Shown here: positions 50,610 through 57,114 of the stretch, one piece after another
Position numbering within the stretch: the first letter of the stretch is position 1
Layout: each line of letters begins with the position of its first letter
Assembly (NCBI RefSeq): GCF_004339245.1
Contig: NZ_SMGG01000006.1
Coordinates: forward strand, 1 to 64,000
DNA: 64,000 bases
Direction: 5' to 3'
Origin: Seleniivibrio woodruffii
GTDB taxonomy: Bacteria > Chrysiogenota > Deferribacteres > Deferribacterales > Geovibrionaceae
The notes under the pieces: model-generated
Seen by the model: the letters and a program-made list of their open reading frames with translations, nothing else
Told to the model about the DNA's origin: nothing
Database searches by the model: none
Made by a program: the position numbers and the translations under genes

Positions 50610-53120
50610 TTACTGAGCAAGCTGCAGTATTTCGTTCTTAGTAGATTTGTTAGTTTTGTAACCGAATGTTGTAGCGTGAGCTCTGATTGCAGCTGCATCG
50701 CTGATGTTACCTTTGTGACAGCTTGTACAAGCAGCCGCATTGGGTCCGATTACTGTGTCATCTGCATGAGATGCAAGGTTTGCGCCCTGCTCAACAGTTA
50801 CAGCAACAGCTTTAGTCTGGTCAGCAACATTGAATGTTCCTGCGGGGTGACAAGCTGTACAGCTGGTGATCGCACGGGGATAATGTACCTGAACGTCCTG
50901 CCACATGGAAGCTGTTCCGCCTACGCCGAAGTTAGCAGGCTGAGCAGATTCGCCGCGGAATGAGTAGATACCTCTTGTACGGTAAACCATATAAGCTGTG
51001 TCTGTGTCAGTTGCAGAGTGAATGTTGTGAAGCATTACTTTCAGGTCATAAGACTCTTCAGTTTTGCCGTCAGCAGTTACATTGTAACCCTGAGCTGCAA
51101 GAGTAGTTCTCGGTGACTTGTCAGTTGCGTTAGCATTGTGACATGTTACGCAAAGCTCAATGTTGTTGATTCTGTTGTGTCCGTGTCCGAGGAAGTCAGT
51201 GTGACAGTTCAGACAGAGGTTGATATCAACAGCGGAACGACGTGCAGTAGCTGCAGAGTTGTCTCTGTTGAAGTTTTTAGTAACAGAGTCAACGATTGCA
51301 AGGTAACCTGTGCCGCCGGACCAAACAACGGGTACACCCTGAATTGCAACGATACCTTTAGTGGCTGTTACAGTTGCGGGAATTGTGAATGTTGTTTCAA
51401 ATACATCAGTAGTTCCAACTTCTGAAGTGTTACCGGATCCTACTGCAACGTTCAGAGTAGGCTGACCACCCTGAGAAGTGATACCCTGGTTAGTAAGGTC
51501 ATCACCGGTGTAGAAACCGATCACCATAGATGTTGCATATGACTGGAAAGCTCTGGCAGCATCTGCTGATGAAGGAGAAGTACCTACGAATACAGCGTCG
51601 TTTGCAGCTGTTGTTCTTTTCAGAACATCGTAGTTTGTTGAAGTGTTAGTGTTGTACGCTCTCCAAGTAACTTTTCCTGTGTTGCCAGTGATTGTAACAG
51701 ACTGGATTTCGTAAGCGATGTTTTTGCCAAGAGAAACTTCCATGTTATGGAGGTTGCCAGCGTGGATGTCTTCAAGTGAAGTAGGAGCAATTGCGCCTGC
51801 AGCACCAGTGTGGCAAGTTACGCATACATTGTCGTTAGCGGCTACAGTGTATGAAGAGTGGATTGACTTAAGTGTGTCATTCATAGGGATAGTTTCCCAA
51901 GGAGTGCTACCATGGCAAGTTACGCAAAGTGACAGTCTGAATTTAGAGTTGTCGGTTGCGTTTGCAAGCTGGTCAGCAGTTGTGTGGCAAACTGAGCACT
52001 CAGACATGTTGCTGGGGAAACCGATATTGAATCCGTCTTCATCAGGATAACCTTTAAGAGCATTACCATCTGTATCTTTTCCGCTTTCATACATAGCAGA
52101 AGCGTGAACGCCATGCACACGACCAACAAGAGAAGATCTTGAGTTGGACACATATGCGGGCTGGTTAGTGCCATCATAAGATGCACCACCAATGTGGCAA
52201 GTTACGCAGTCATCTGCATCTGCTCTGAGAACGTTGTTGTGATGATAGTTGAACTCGTTATCACCGTGACATTTGATACAGCTGGGAGCAGAACCCTTGT
52301 CACTAACATAGTTTCTGGGGTTGTTAGAGCTGTTAACATCATAGTCAACGCCTGCAACAAGCAGTCTCTGAACGTTGAAACCATCTTTCAGGTTACCTCT
52401 GTAGATGTCAGAAGCAGCATTTGCTCCGTCAGCATCTGAAGAAGTTGCACCGATCATAAGTGTTTCAGCAAGATAAGGTGTCAGGTTAGCATCAGCAGCA
52501 ATAGTCACAGTGTAGTTGTTACCTGAATCCAGTACAGCAACGCGGTTGCTGAAGTTAGCTGCTGTAGCAGGTGCAATGTTTACCCATCTGTCATAGTTTG
52601 CAAGGGTATTATCATCCTGATAACGGTTGATAGTGAATGAAACAAAATCAGCCGCAGGGTTAAAAGCAGCACCAGTTGAAGTTATAGTGATATCAACAGT
52701 AAGAGAGTTATCTCCGTTAACTACCACATCAGTGATGTTTGCACTCCAAGCTGTTTTGAAGTTACGCACTTCACGAACCACCGGAGCGGAATCGTTAGCT
52801 CCCTGATGGCCTTTAACGAGATAATCACCGCCGTGAGCGGGGTCGTTAGTTTTGCCGTCAGCGTGGCAAGTTGCGCAAGATTCAACAGCAGTGATTTTGC
52901 CAGTTGAAGCAAGTTCAGCTTCAAGAGCTGCGATTGCATCTTCGTACTGAGCAATAGTGATAGCACCGCTTTCAAGCTGTGCCTTAAGCTCGGCAATGAT
53001 AGCCGCCGTGTCTGCATCAGCACCATTGGCGCCGTCAGAGCCGTCTGAGCCGCCGCAACCTACCAGCATGAACGAGCAGGTGAGGGCGAGCATCAAAAGA
53101 AATAAAATTCTTCTCGACAT
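50610..53120 (-). CDS. OmcA/MtrC-family decahaem c-type cytochrome (surface lipoprotein)
   Basis: An 836-residue lipoprotein (lipobox LVGC then GGSDGSDGANGADAD, a flexible linker). A short helical segment at ~35-75 precedes CATCH. The ten sites are CATCH, CIKCH, CVTCH, CSVCH, CVTCH, CVTCH, CLNCH, CVTCH, CTACH and CTSCH. They are arranged as two clusters separated by beta-rich segments (for example VTITGNTGKVTWRAYNTNTSTNYDVL), as in the four-domain OmcA/MtrC fold. The family forms the extracellular terminus of electron conduits reducing Fe(III), Mn(IV), flavins or electrodes. GGAGG precedes the ATG. It has its own promoter, a ~260-base leader with two RNA structures, and its own terminator. 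Confidence 0.92.
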   Translation of the reverse strand: MSRRILFLLMLALTCSFMLVGCGGSDGSDGANGADADTAAIIAELKAQLESGAITIAQYEDAIAALEAELASTGKITAVESCATCHADGKTNDPAHGGDYLVKGHQGANDSAPVVREVRNFKTAWSANITDVVVNGDNSLTVDITITSTGAAFNPAADFVSFTINRYQDDNTLANYDRWVNIAPATAANFSNRVAVLDSGNNYTVTIAADANLTPYLAETLMIGATSSDADGANAASDIYRGNLKDGFNVQRLLVAGVDYDVNSSNNPRNYVSDKGSAPSCIKCHGDNEFNYHHNNVLRADADDCVTCHIGGASYDGTNQPAYVSNSRSSLVGRVHGVHASAMYESGKDTDGNALKGYPDEDGFNIGFPSNMSECSVCHTTADQLANATDNSKFRLSLCVTCHGSTPWETIPMNDTLKSIHSSYTVAANDNVCVTCHTGAAGAIAPTSLEDIHAGNLHNMEVSLGKNIAYEIQSVTITGNTGKVTWRAYNTNTSTNYDVLKRTTAANDAVFVGTSPSSADAARAFQSYATSMVIGFYTGDDLTNQGITSQGGQPTLNVAVGSGNTSEVGTTDVFETTFTIPATVTATKGIVAIQGVPVVWSGGTGYLAIVDSVTKNFNRDNSAATARRSAVDINLCLNCHTDFLGHGHNRINNIELCVTCHNANATDKSPRTTLAAQGYNVTADGKTEESYDLKVMLHNIHSATDTDTAYMVYRTRGIYSFRGESAQPANFGVGGTASMWQDVQVHYPRAITSCTACHPAGTFNVADQTKAVAVTVEQGANLASHADDTVIGPNAAACTSCHKGNISDAAAIRAHATTFGYKTNKSTKNEILQLAQ

Positions 53121-53155
53121 AAATTTAGCCTCCTTTTGCTTATGTCAAATATCCG

Positions 53156-53214
53156 CCTGTTTCCGTCAGCACTGTGGCTTGTCTAATAACGTGCTGCCAT
53201 GAAACAGGTTTTTT
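53156..53214 (-). promoter_or_regulatory. Structured leader RNA element 1 (putative pseudoknot)
   Basis: Read on the minus strand (the sense of the decahaem gene): closing stem CCTGTTT/AAACAGG. Inside, TGGC-AGCAC-loop-GCCA-CA-GTGCT has the order of an H-type pseudoknot. The loop carries GTTATTAGACAAGCCACAG, shared with element 2. It begins ~35 bases upstream of the start codon. I do not recognise it as a known riboswitch class. Confidence 0.5.
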
Positions 53215-53277
53215 GCTTAATCAACTATAAAACTATCTTTCAACTATACATATTCTCCGAAATTATTCTTCAAGCTG

Positions 53278-53341
53278 AAAACCCGTGAAACGTGAACAAT
53301 GCTGTGGCTTGTTTTTAACACATTGCCCGTACACGGTTTTT
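53278..53341 (-). promoter_or_regulatory. Structured leader RNA element 2 (putative pseudoknot)
   Basis: The same architecture as element 1, 63 bases further upstream: closing stem CCGTG/CACGG, then GGC-AATG-loop-GCC-ACAG-CATT, with the loop GTTAAAAACAAGCCACAG. The paired segments differ from element 1 but remain complementary; the unpaired core ACAAGCCACAG is identical. Confidence 0.5.
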
Positions 53342-53389: not shown

Positions 53390-53417
53390 AGTATACCAAA
53401 TAAAATTCAGTTGTCAA
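53390..53417 (-). promoter_or_regulatory. Sigma-70-type promoter of the decahaem cytochrome gene
   Basis: On the minus strand TTGACA (53412-53417), a 16 bp spacer and TATACT (53390-53395), near-consensus. It predicts a start near 53383 and a leader of ~260 bases that contains both structured elements. A GGCATATGCC palindrome at 53441-53450 upstream could bind a regulator. Confidence 0.65.
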
Positions 53418-53450
53418 ATATAACTTAACCACAACATATTGGCATATGCC

Positions 53451-53696
53451 CGTAAATTCCGTGCATTCTATCTCTAAATTATGACACAGATACACTATTA
53501 AACATTAAATTTAATACTTATCAGGCACTAGCGGCGGAGATTTACTATATATAGAATTAATACAATATTCATATAGACATCTTCCTGTGCCGTGAATATT
53601 CATTCATACTAAACTTTAGGTATTTACCAGAAGTTAAATATGCATTTATTTATATATTCTGCACACAAAAAAACCACTCATACGCCTGTATTTTTT
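53451..53696. other. AT-rich intergenic stretch
   Basis: About 245 bp between the decahaem promoter region and the end of the sigma-54 regulator gene. No gene, hairpin terminator or recognised site is seen. Confidence 0.45.
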
Positions 53697-55070
53697 TCAG
53701 CTTCCTTTCAGTCTTTTGTGGAGAGCCTGTCTTGTGATGCCCAGAAGTCTCGCCGCACAGCTCACGTTTCCTTCGGACTCCTTAACTGCGGCATCCACCA
53801 CATACTGCTCTATCTCTTTCAGGGTCGGAAAAGTTCCGCTGTAGGTAAACACCTTTCTGTTCACATCCGCAGCCGATATCCCGTGGCGGTACAGAAAGCC
53901 CTCCGCCTCACGTTCTCCGGGTCTTTTCCCGCCGAACACCATAGCCATGTCTGAGACAACCGCCTGCAGCTGACGCACATTACCCGGAAAATCATAGCTT
54001 TCCAGCATCCTGATGAACGCTGTCGGGATAGGCTCGCCCTTAAGCCCCACCTCTTCCAGTGCCTTTTCATAAAACACGGGAGCAAGGAGCCCGATATCGC
54101 CTCTTCTCTCCCTGAGCGGGGGAATATCGACTCTGTGGGTTGTCAGCCTGTAGAAAAGATCCTGTCTGAACCTGCCCTGCCTGACGCTCTCCTCAAGATC
54201 GGCATTTGTCGCCGCAACTATGCGCACGCCGGAACGGACAAACTTGTCCGAACCCAGCGGTGAATATATTTTTTCCTGAAGCAGGCGAAGCAGTTTTACC
54301 TGCGCACTGTCGGTGAGATCGCCTATTTCGTCTAAAAAAAGCGTTCCGCCCTCTGCCAGAGCCACCATACCCTGACGCTGCTTTTCGGCTCCTGTGAAAG
54401 CACCCTTAACGTGACCGAACAGGGTATCCGTGAACATGGTGTCGTCCAGTCCGGCAACGTTCACGGGGACAAAATCCCCTTTTCTTCCGCTGCATTTATG
54501 AACCGCACCTGCAAAAAGCTCTTTGCCCACCCCGGTCTCCCCTGTTATGAGAACCGGAAAGCTGCTTTTAGATATGGATTCTATATATCGGAAAAGCTCC
54601 TTCATTCTGCCGTCGGAGGTAACTATGCCGCAGAAATCGACAATCTCTCCGCTTTCAGCCGCCTTTTTCGCACTGCGCAGAGCATTTATCTCCGTCTGCA
54701 TCTGAAATGCGTTCAGTGCCGAATGGTATGCCGCTGCAAATCTCTCCTTGTCCAGCGGCTTTACGAGAAAGTTCAGCGCACCCTTATGGATGCATCTGAC
54801 CGCTGTATCCACATCTGCGTTCCCGGTGATTATTATGACCGGAGTCTCCGGATGCTTAGCCTTCACCAGTTCAAGGATATCCTCTCCTGTGTAGTAGGGC
54901 ATCTGTAGGTCAAGGAAGACAGCCATGGGCGTGACGGAATCCAGAGCGGCAACGAACTCTCTCGGGTCATTCATGATAATATAGTCACTGATGCCGCTGC
55001 GTTTCAGAAAAATGGCATAGGCATCGGTTATTGTTTTGTCGTCATCTATTATATATATAGGGGATGTCAT
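53697..55070 (-). CDS. Sigma-54-dependent response regulator (NtrC family)
   Basis: A 457-residue transcription activator. A receiver domain at ~1-120 (IYIIDDDKTITDAYAIFLKRSG; AVFLDLQMPYYTGED). The AAA+ domain at ~145-380 has Walker A GETGVGKE, the sigma-54 contact loop GAFTGA and Walker B GGTLFLDEIGD. A Fis-type HTH follows at the C-terminus (NVSCAARLLGITRQALHKRLKG). It is co-transcribed with the hybrid kinase (four-base overlap). Candidate targets are the sigma-54 promoter at 57100 and genes elsewhere; no sigma-54 site was found in front of the cytochrome genes. Confidence 0.93.
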   Translation of the reverse strand: MTSPIYIIDDDKTITDAYAIFLKRSGISDYIIMNDPREFVAALDSVTPMAVFLDLQMPYYTGEDILELVKAKHPETPVIIITGNADVDTAVRCIHKGALNFLVKPLDKERFAAAYHSALNAFQMQTEINALRSAKKAAESGEIVDFCGIVTSDGRMKELFRYIESISKSSFPVLITGETGVGKELFAGAVHKCSGRKGDFVPVNVAGLDDTMFTDTLFGHVKGAFTGAEKQRQGMVALAEGGTLFLDEIGDLTDSAQVKLLRLLQEKIYSPLGSDKFVRSGVRIVAATNADLEESVRQGRFRQDLFYRLTTHRVDIPPLRERRGDIGLLAPVFYEKALEEVGLKGEPIPTAFIRMLESYDFPGNVRQLQAVVSDMAMVFGGKRPGEREAEGFLYRHGISAADVNRKVFTYSGTFPTLKEIEQYVVDAAVKESEGNVSCAARLLGITRQALHKRLKGS

Positions 55071-56905
55071 GCATCACCTGCGGGAACCAATATCCTGACC
55101 GTGGTTCCTGCATTTCTTTCAGATGTGACCTCCAGTCTGCCCTTGTGATCCTGAACTATGGAATACACAATTGCAAGCCCCAGTCCCGTGCCCCCTTCGG
55201 CCTGTTTGGTGGTGAAGAAGGGTTCTGTGATGCGCTGAATGTCCTCTTCCCTGATCCCCACTCCGCTGTCGGCTATCTCTGTAACAACAAAACCTTCCTG
55301 CGTGAAACACCGCACTGACACGGGCAGATGTCTGCCTACAGTGGCCTCAAGAGCATTCATTATAATGTTCATAAAAACCTGTTCCAGCTTCTGGCCGTTG
55401 CCGTTAACTGCGGGAAGCTCCTCGGCTATCTCCACCGAAAAGTGATCTGTGGTCTTGTTTATTTTATGTGTAAGAATATGGATTGCGGACTTAAGGGGCT
55501 CCGCAATTGAGAGCGGTTTGTGAGCTGCCGAAGTCTCCTGTCTTACGAAACTTTTGAGATCGTGAACAATGTCCCTGATCCTCTCCGACCCCTTGTGAAC
55601 ACCTTCCAGAAGCTGAACTATGTCGCATTTTGCCTCTTCATAAGGGGTGTTGCCCACCATCAGCTCCCTGCCCGGCTCGGAAAATGAATCGAGAAGGGAT
55701 ATCATATCGTTCAGATAATCCCTTATTATTGAGGTGTTGAACATAATAAAATTGTTCGGATTGTTCAGCTCATGGGCAACCCCTGAAACGAGAGTTCCCA
55801 GAGCGGCCATTTTGTTGGTCTGGATCATACGGATCTTAAGTTCTTTCTCTATATTCTCAAGACGCACCTTTTCGGATACGTCCTCGATATCAAGCAGTAT
55901 AAAGGCATTTTCTCCCTCGGAAATGATGTTGCCCCTGAAATCGGCGATAAACTCACGCCCCGCCCGGCTGACCTGTGTCACCCTTGACAGCTCGAAATAT
56001 GAGTGCTCGGCCGAAAGCTCCGTCAGCCTGTCCATGACCTCCTGTCCGGTGAGAAACGACAGCGGAAGTCCTTCGGCCTGCGCGGCCATTCCGTAAAGCT
56101 TTTGCAGAGCCTCGTTGCAGTCCTTGATCATCAGACTGTTTCTGGAGGTGATCACAGCGGGAATGAACTTCTTCCGGAAAACGCTGGTGAACTTCTCCTC
56201 AGCTATATACAGCTCGTTTCTGAATATTTCGGTCTGGGTTATGTCGGTGAGGGTGACTATGCTCCCTTCCATGAAGCGGCTGACACCCATCACGGCAGTT
56301 TTTCTGTCCGAACCGTTGTCCAGACAGATCACGGAAGACCCCATGCTGTGGTCATATCCGCCGAGAACGTCCCTTATGTTGACCCCTGCCGCACATTCCT
56401 TCATTCCGGTAATGGTACAGAAGGTTCTGTTCACCATGGTTATATTGTAGTCTTTGTCCACAACGGCAATGCCGTCGGAAGTGTTCTCAAGGACGTTTTC
56501 AATAAGCTCGGTCTTTTCGAATGCGCTCTTTTCAAGTTCAATCCGTGTGAAAGAGAGTGAAACAGTCGCCAGAAGAGATTGGGATGTGAACGGTTTTATG
56601 ATGTAGCCGTATGGCGATGTTGTCATGGATCTGCTTATTGTGGCGGAATCGGAATAGCTTGTGATGTAAACCACAGGATATTTCCTTGTCCTGTGCAGTT
56701 CAGAAACCAGCTCAATGCCGTCCACAGAGGATTTCAGACTGATATCCATAAGGATCAGGTCGGGCGTGTCCCTCGCAAGGATGGAATGAACCTCTTCGTC
56801 GTCAACCGCAAGGCCGATAACCGTATAACCGCTCCGCTCCAGTCTGGTAGCGATATCCAGACCGATAATGGCTTCGTCTTCAACGACCAGTATCTTTTTT
56901 GACAT
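55067..56905 (-). CDS. Cytoplasmic histidine kinase with N-terminal receiver and two PAS domains
   Basis: A 612-residue protein with no membrane segment. Receiver at ~1-125 (KILVVEDEAIIGLDIATRLE; DLILMDISL; ITSYSD; IIKPF). PAS-like domains at ~130-240 (LENTSDGIAVVDKDYNITMVNRTFCTITG) and ~250-360. The HisKA region has GTLVSGVAHELNNPNNFIMFN; the HATPase has MNIIMNALEAT, DSGVGIREEDI and GGTGLGLAIVYSI. It signals to the adjacent sigma-54 regulator and can itself be a phospho-relay target through its receiver. The ligand of the PAS domains is unknown. Confidence 0.9.
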   Translation of the reverse strand: MSKKILVVEDEAIIGLDIATRLERSGYTVIGLAVDDEEVHSILARDTPDLILMDISLKSSVDGIELVSELHRTRKYPVVYITSYSDSATISRSMTTSPYGYIIKPFTSQSLLATVSLSFTRIELEKSAFEKTELIENVLENTSDGIAVVDKDYNITMVNRTFCTITGMKECAAGVNIRDVLGGYDHSMGSSVICLDNGSDRKTAVMGVSRFMEGSIVTLTDITQTEIFRNELYIAEEKFTSVFRKKFIPAVITSRNSLMIKDCNEALQKLYGMAAQAEGLPLSFLTGQEVMDRLTELSAEHSYFELSRVTQVSRAGREFIADFRGNIISEGENAFILLDIEDVSEKVRLENIEKELKIRMIQTNKMAALGTLVSGVAHELNNPNNFIMFNTSIIRDYLNDMISLLDSFSEPGRELMVGNTPYEEAKCDIVQLLEGVHKGSERIRDIVHDLKSFVRQETSAAHKPLSIAEPLKSAIHILTHKINKTTDHFSVEIAEELPAVNGNGQKLEQVFMNIIMNALEATVGRHLPVSVRCFTQEGFVVTEIADSGVGIREEDIQRITEPFFTTKQAEGGTGLGLAIVYSIVQDHKGRLEVTSERNAGTTVRILVPAGDA

Positions 56906-57099: not shown

Positions 57100-57114
57100 T
57101 GGCACAAACATTGC
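57100..57114 (+). promoter_or_regulatory. Sigma-54 promoter of the chemotaxis operon
   Basis: TGGCACAAACATTGC matches the -24/-12 consensus (TGGCAC-N5-TTGC), with GG and GC exactly 10 bases apart. The -12 GC at 57113-57114 predicts a start near 57126, one base before the ATG at 57127. No other sigma-70-like promoter is obvious in the 220 bp gap. Confidence 0.8.

Follow-up and report, generated by a model that had tools for sequence, protein, structure and literature searches.

What kind of RNA lies between the promoter and the start codon of a decahaem cytochrome gene in Seleniivibrio woodruffii, and is it built to bind a small molecule? The window, by which we mean the whole 64,000-nucleotide stretch that was analysed, encodes on its minus strand (50610–53120) an OmcA/MtrC-like decahaem c-type cytochrome with a lipoprotein-type signal peptide. 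The profile evidence on this type is divided (TIGR03507, 195.4 bits, below its cut-off of 209.3; PF22113, 121 bits, above its cut-off of 30), and ten CXXCH motifs were counted. Domain matches place an NtrC-type response regulator with a sigma-54 interaction domain (53697–55070) and a sensor histidine kinase with receiver and PAS domains (55067–56905) on the same strand. We note that the sigma-54 promoter consensus TGGCACNNNNNTTGC is matched exactly at 57100–57114 on the plus strand, near these sigma-54-type regulator genes. The first-pass annotation had described the cytochrome leader as two tandem ligand-binding RNAs, each an H-type pseudoknot with an identical unpaired core and helices that vary in sequence and still pair.

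The layout itself was re-found where it had been placed. A sigma-70-type promoter at 53390–53417 on the minus strand (TTGACA-16-TATACT, 11/12, with TG before the −10) is indeed near consensus, with transcription predicted to start from it, and between it and the ATG at 53120 are two hairpins, at 53283–53336 (copy 1) and 53156–53208 (copy 2), both on the minus strand. Fused to the −35 hexamer is a box, GTTAAGTTATATTTGACA (53412–53429, minus strand), that occurs once per genome in seven genomes of three genera. When it was searched as GTTAAGTTNNNTTTGACA, exactly one match was found in the window genome and in each of G001, G003, G006, G007, G008 and G010, always preceding a signal-peptide/cytochrome gene, and the reversed control gave no match. 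Because of this one match per genome, always before this gene type, and the empty control, the box is a gene-specific promoter element conserved across three genera. Upstream of the promoter lies a palindrome, GGGCATATGCC (53441–53451, minus strand), and copy 2 is bounded on the same strand by a 5′ flank, TTGATTAAGCAAAAAACC (53207–53224), and a 3′ flank, ATATTTGACATAAGCAAAAGGAGGCTAAATTT (53121–53152), which contains the ribosome-binding site GGAGG at 53129–53133. The leader also holds repeats. The word ATATTTGACA of the −35 region (53412–53421) is repeated at 53143–53152, between hairpin 2 and the ribosome-binding site, and in congeners TATTTGACAT is present at both corresponding places; ATGACCGTGT stands four times in tandem directly after the promoter of G001 (L016, 1723–1783), once in G003 and as one degenerate copy in the window. 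No terminator-like site was found in the leader, and a leader peptide was rejected, as the short open frames (27 codons over copy 1) have no obvious ribosome-binding site and, by eye, are not kept in relatives.

The two hairpins are related to each other. The loop word ACAAGCCACAG is an exact match in both (53302–53312 in copy 1, 53172–53182 in copy 2, minus strand), which bears out the identical unpaired core, and a common word of 11 bases was reached in only 5 of 2000 shuffles of one element. The 2.9 Mb genome contains this 11-mer exactly three times; the one occurrence outside the leader lies within an open frame on another contig. Copy 1 is closed by CCGTG...CACGG, and copy 2 runs from CCTGTTTC to GGAAACAGG, with CCTG...CAGG as its closing stem. 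An alignment anchored on the bases common to both copies leaves all six inner pairs intact in each, with three pairs altered at both positions and a fourth at one. The inner stems differ in sequence and still pair, as the first-pass annotation had stated of its helices; the GGC/GCC pair is invariant. With two sequences only, the shuffle control on this covariation is weak (54 of 500 shuffles reach the observed value), and no slid register comes near it. Copy 2 folds much better than its shuffles (z −4.1, ends chosen by eye) and copy 1 weakly so (z −1.65, p 0.07). Taken together, these results support a structured leader RNA whose stems have changed with compensation. When some 40 bases of flank are included at either end, the alignment of the two copies beats that of shuffles (p 0.001); the flanks by themselves align no better than shuffles. 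A tandem duplication, with the copies about 128 bases apart, is the simplest and the likely origin of the pair.

The pseudoknot found no support. The most stable fold is a plain nested hairpin, with a 17–18-base loop holding ACAAGCCACA, and the C of GGC is already used in its inner stem. Forcing GGC/GCC within the nested fold costs 3.0 kcal/mol in copy 1 and 8.6 kcal/mol in copy 2, figures that score the nested fold and not the two helices jointly. Both triplets are unchanged between the copies, which leaves no covariation, and GCC was not found in the hairpin loops of two congeners (G003 and G001). With the forced pair unfavourable under nested-fold scoring and the pair itself not conserved, we rejected the pseudoknot.

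Nor did the leader resemble a known family. The Rfam search that the first-pass annotation had proposed (Rfam 15) returned no family in the window at the gathering cut-off, and two matches in the leader at E up to 10, both at chance level. The annotation had stated that the GNRA hairpin and core of GEMM-I are absent, and we agree: the c-di-GMP-I/GEMM-I model (RF01051) has no match in the leader, and its highest-scoring site in the genome, at 17.3 bits where the cut-off is 35, lies elsewhere. A covariance model of the two copies including the loop core (R1), run with strict filters on 50 genomes of the phylum, which we take to be Deferribacterota, and on 384 genomes in all, scored its own two copies at 47.5 and 43.5 bits and gave no other convincing match. 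Four matches at E 0.04–0.09 per genome are no more than chance over 384 genomes; one weaker match in G026 (E 0.2) was inspected and lacks the ACAAGCCACAG word. A widespread new RNA family was rejected, since over these 384 genomes R1 is convincing for the two copies only. A second model, built on the leader (R2), found a single copy in every one of three congeners and no convincing match outside them; its match in G011 has no cytochrome gene downstream. Family-wide enrichment of GGCA...ACAAGCCA was no greater than for the reversed-pattern control.

Orthologous leaders were compared within a sample of one genome per species and few orthologues. G003 and G001 are syntenic with the window: the kinase and NtrC-type regulator upstream are 70–74% identical, the multihaem gene downstream 86–89%, and the promoter region 85–89% over aligned stretches of 99–124 bases. 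Their leaders retain the promoter, the palindrome, the promoter box and both hairpin-2 flanks nearly base for base, the flank pattern being TTGATTAAGCAAAAAACCTG...CAGGC.G.TATTTGACATAAAGCAAAAGGAGGCTAAATTT. The copy 1 hairpin is absent from both leaders, and the ACAAGCCACAG loop is absent from the hairpin at the second position, which has the same closing CCTG/CAGG as the window. Between these ends the interiors show no significant similarity (window against the congeners, p 0.18 and 0.24; G003 against G001, p 0.44), with some residual similarity perhaps remaining between copy 2 and the G001 hairpin (p 0.056). The hairpins nonetheless fold far better than their shuffles in G003 (z −4.3) and G001 (z −5.2), with ends chosen by eye. 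In another genus, the orthologous locus of G007 has the same promoter box, downstream genes 76–78% identical and a hairpin CCTG...TAGG at the same place. No hairpin was found in L010, a leader without the promoter box. Reverse-complement comparisons, made in case the loop is inverted in relatives, gave nothing convincing over many uncorrected pairs.

As the hairpin ends had been chosen by eye, the fold test was repeated on a fixed stretch, −105 to −22. The window, the two congeners and G007 gave z −2.46, −2.43, −3.14 and −2.91, each with p < 0.025; leaders of a third genus were weaker (L017, z −1.75; L013, z −0.54). The six leaders together differ from 20 intergenic controls of the window with p 0.014, a value that is conservative if the controls include the studied leader. 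A hairpin at a fixed place before the ribosome-binding site, despite sequence change, is thus clear in the window genus and G007 and weak in the third genus. Absence of homologous elements from relatives, which the first-pass annotation had named as telling against its reading, was found for the core and not for the hairpin. As judged from these leaders and the covariance-model searches, the would-be ligand pocket is private to one species, and the hairpin as such is common to several. A riboswitch would show the reverse, a retained core with variable stems.

The genes around these leaders add observations of their own. The congener cytochromes are about 28–30% identical overall, though leader and lipoprotein signal peptide are conserved and neighbours are 70–91% identical (L070, L071, L074), and G006 has a different multihaem protein behind the same promoter and signal peptide. 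In G007 (L075, from 4809) the reading frame differs between signal peptide and mature cytochrome, with a frameshift near a GSDG stretch whose candidate causes are a real frameshift, phase variation or sequencing.

Our tentative preference, to which we give a little short of an even chance, is for a position-conserved, sequence-free hairpin upstream of the ribosome-binding site that acts structurally and was tandem-duplicated in the window species. In this reading the 5′ leader is long and has one constant structural feature, a hairpin of about 50–57 bases whose end lies about 35 bases ahead of the start codon; the position, size and stability of that hairpin are kept across species in our comparison, its sequence is not. 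Such a hairpin would act by structure alone, either protecting the mRNA from decay or setting ribosome access to the ribosome-binding site. Tandem duplication in the window species would account for the loop shared by the two copies, after which the two stems would have drifted through compensatory changes with the hairpins maintained; the fast turnover would follow from weak sequence constraint, perhaps aided by template switching. In bacteria, ompA-type 5′-leader hairpins have a stabilising or ribosome-access role. The window hairpin is like them in being a stem-loop near the ribosome-binding site with its presence conserved and its sequence not, and a similar role is what we propose here; it is unlike them in being duplicated and attached to a gene-specific promoter.

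What weakens the structural reading is the loop, because the identical 11-mer, together with AAGCCACAG in the leader of a paralogue, suggests that loop sequence matters in the window species. Of 27 occurrences of AAGCCACAG in the genome, only three fall outside open frames, all sense-oriented: those in copy 1 and copy 2, and a third on contig 5, where it precedes a paralogous decahaem gene by 215 bases. In the paralogue leader the word lies inside a hairpin, TACGGG...CCCGTA, mostly unpaired and adjoining the 3′ strand, and this hairpin resembles copy 2 (p 0.004, uncorrected). A species-specific factor that reads the loop is possible, since the sole other occurrence outside open frames sits in a cytochrome leader hairpin. 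The loops would then be a double binding site for a trans-acting partner, either a small RNA or a protein that binds RNA, whose action would extend to the paralogous leader, with partner and loop co-evolving and other species having other loops; a loop left identical while the stems changed with compensation would fit such a partner. Against it, the genome count of AAGCCACAG is not above control (27, with 41 for the reversed word), no perfect complement of ACAAGCCACAG was found in the genome as a candidate small RNA, apart from one inside an open frame, and the odds that a given 300-base leader matches nine bases of an 11-mer named in advance are a few per thousand, with the number of paralogues not yet counted in. 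We consider this account unlikely.

The turned-over interior between unchanged flanks raises another explanation, that of a functionless quasi-palindrome kept and reshaped by replication template switching, in which compensatory changes would arise without selection and the middle of the leader would be free to vary. Published work (PMC8794818) reports that template switching generates hairpins and preserves them, with multibase compensatory changes; the window stems show such changes together with fast turnover, and leader repeats differ from species to species, the four copies of ATGACCGTGT in G001 being an example. Unlike such hairpins, that of the window keeps a fixed place, bounded by conserved flanks, in several species: two genera at least have it at the same position, and the closing CCTG/CAGG and the flanks are kept in three congeners. 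We regard this explanation as rather improbable. More improbable still is a bolder proposal, in which each species has its own version of a partner that recognises the hairpin loop, the two diverging in step; a conserved surface-cytochrome expression site (promoter, leader and signal peptide) would then carry a lineage-private RNA recognition code.

A new, narrowly distributed class of tandem riboswitch or aptamer, with a small-molecule ligand and control over the cytochrome, now seems very unlikely. The conserved loop, covarying stems and tandem layout would suit it, and in Geobacter sulfurreducens tandem GEMM-Ib (cGAMP) riboswitches stand before multihaem cytochrome genes (PMC6456294), a comparable gene type. 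The likeness is one of layout only, tandem structured leader RNAs before an outer-membrane multihaem cytochrome gene; unlike the Geobacter leaders, that of the window has no GEMM-I match, its loop core is not kept between species and no expression platform such as a terminator was seen. Conservation of an aptamer core across species, by which a riboswitch is recognised, was not found: the core is missing from the orthologous leaders, with no convincing match in 383 other genomes, and neither Rfam nor the pseudoknot lends support. Equally hard to credit is a DNA-level operator, with repeats near the start of the transcript serving as transcription-factor sites and the hairpin shape incidental, for which the −35 word found again after copy 2 and TTGA.TAAGCAAAA-like words on both sides of the hairpin would speak, and against which stands the fact that pairing is conserved from species to species and the words within the hairpins are not.

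Because related species keep the hairpin at the second position only, and with a different sequence, the leader has the look of an ordinary structural element and not of a new sensor for small molecules. Were it a true ligand-binding RNA, it would add a new means of controlling extracellular electron transfer beyond Geobacter. As a structural element, it offers a clean case of a hairpin whose position is kept while its sequence is wholly turned over between sister species, and of a gene-specific promoter and leader retained while the surface cytochrome behind them diverges fast.
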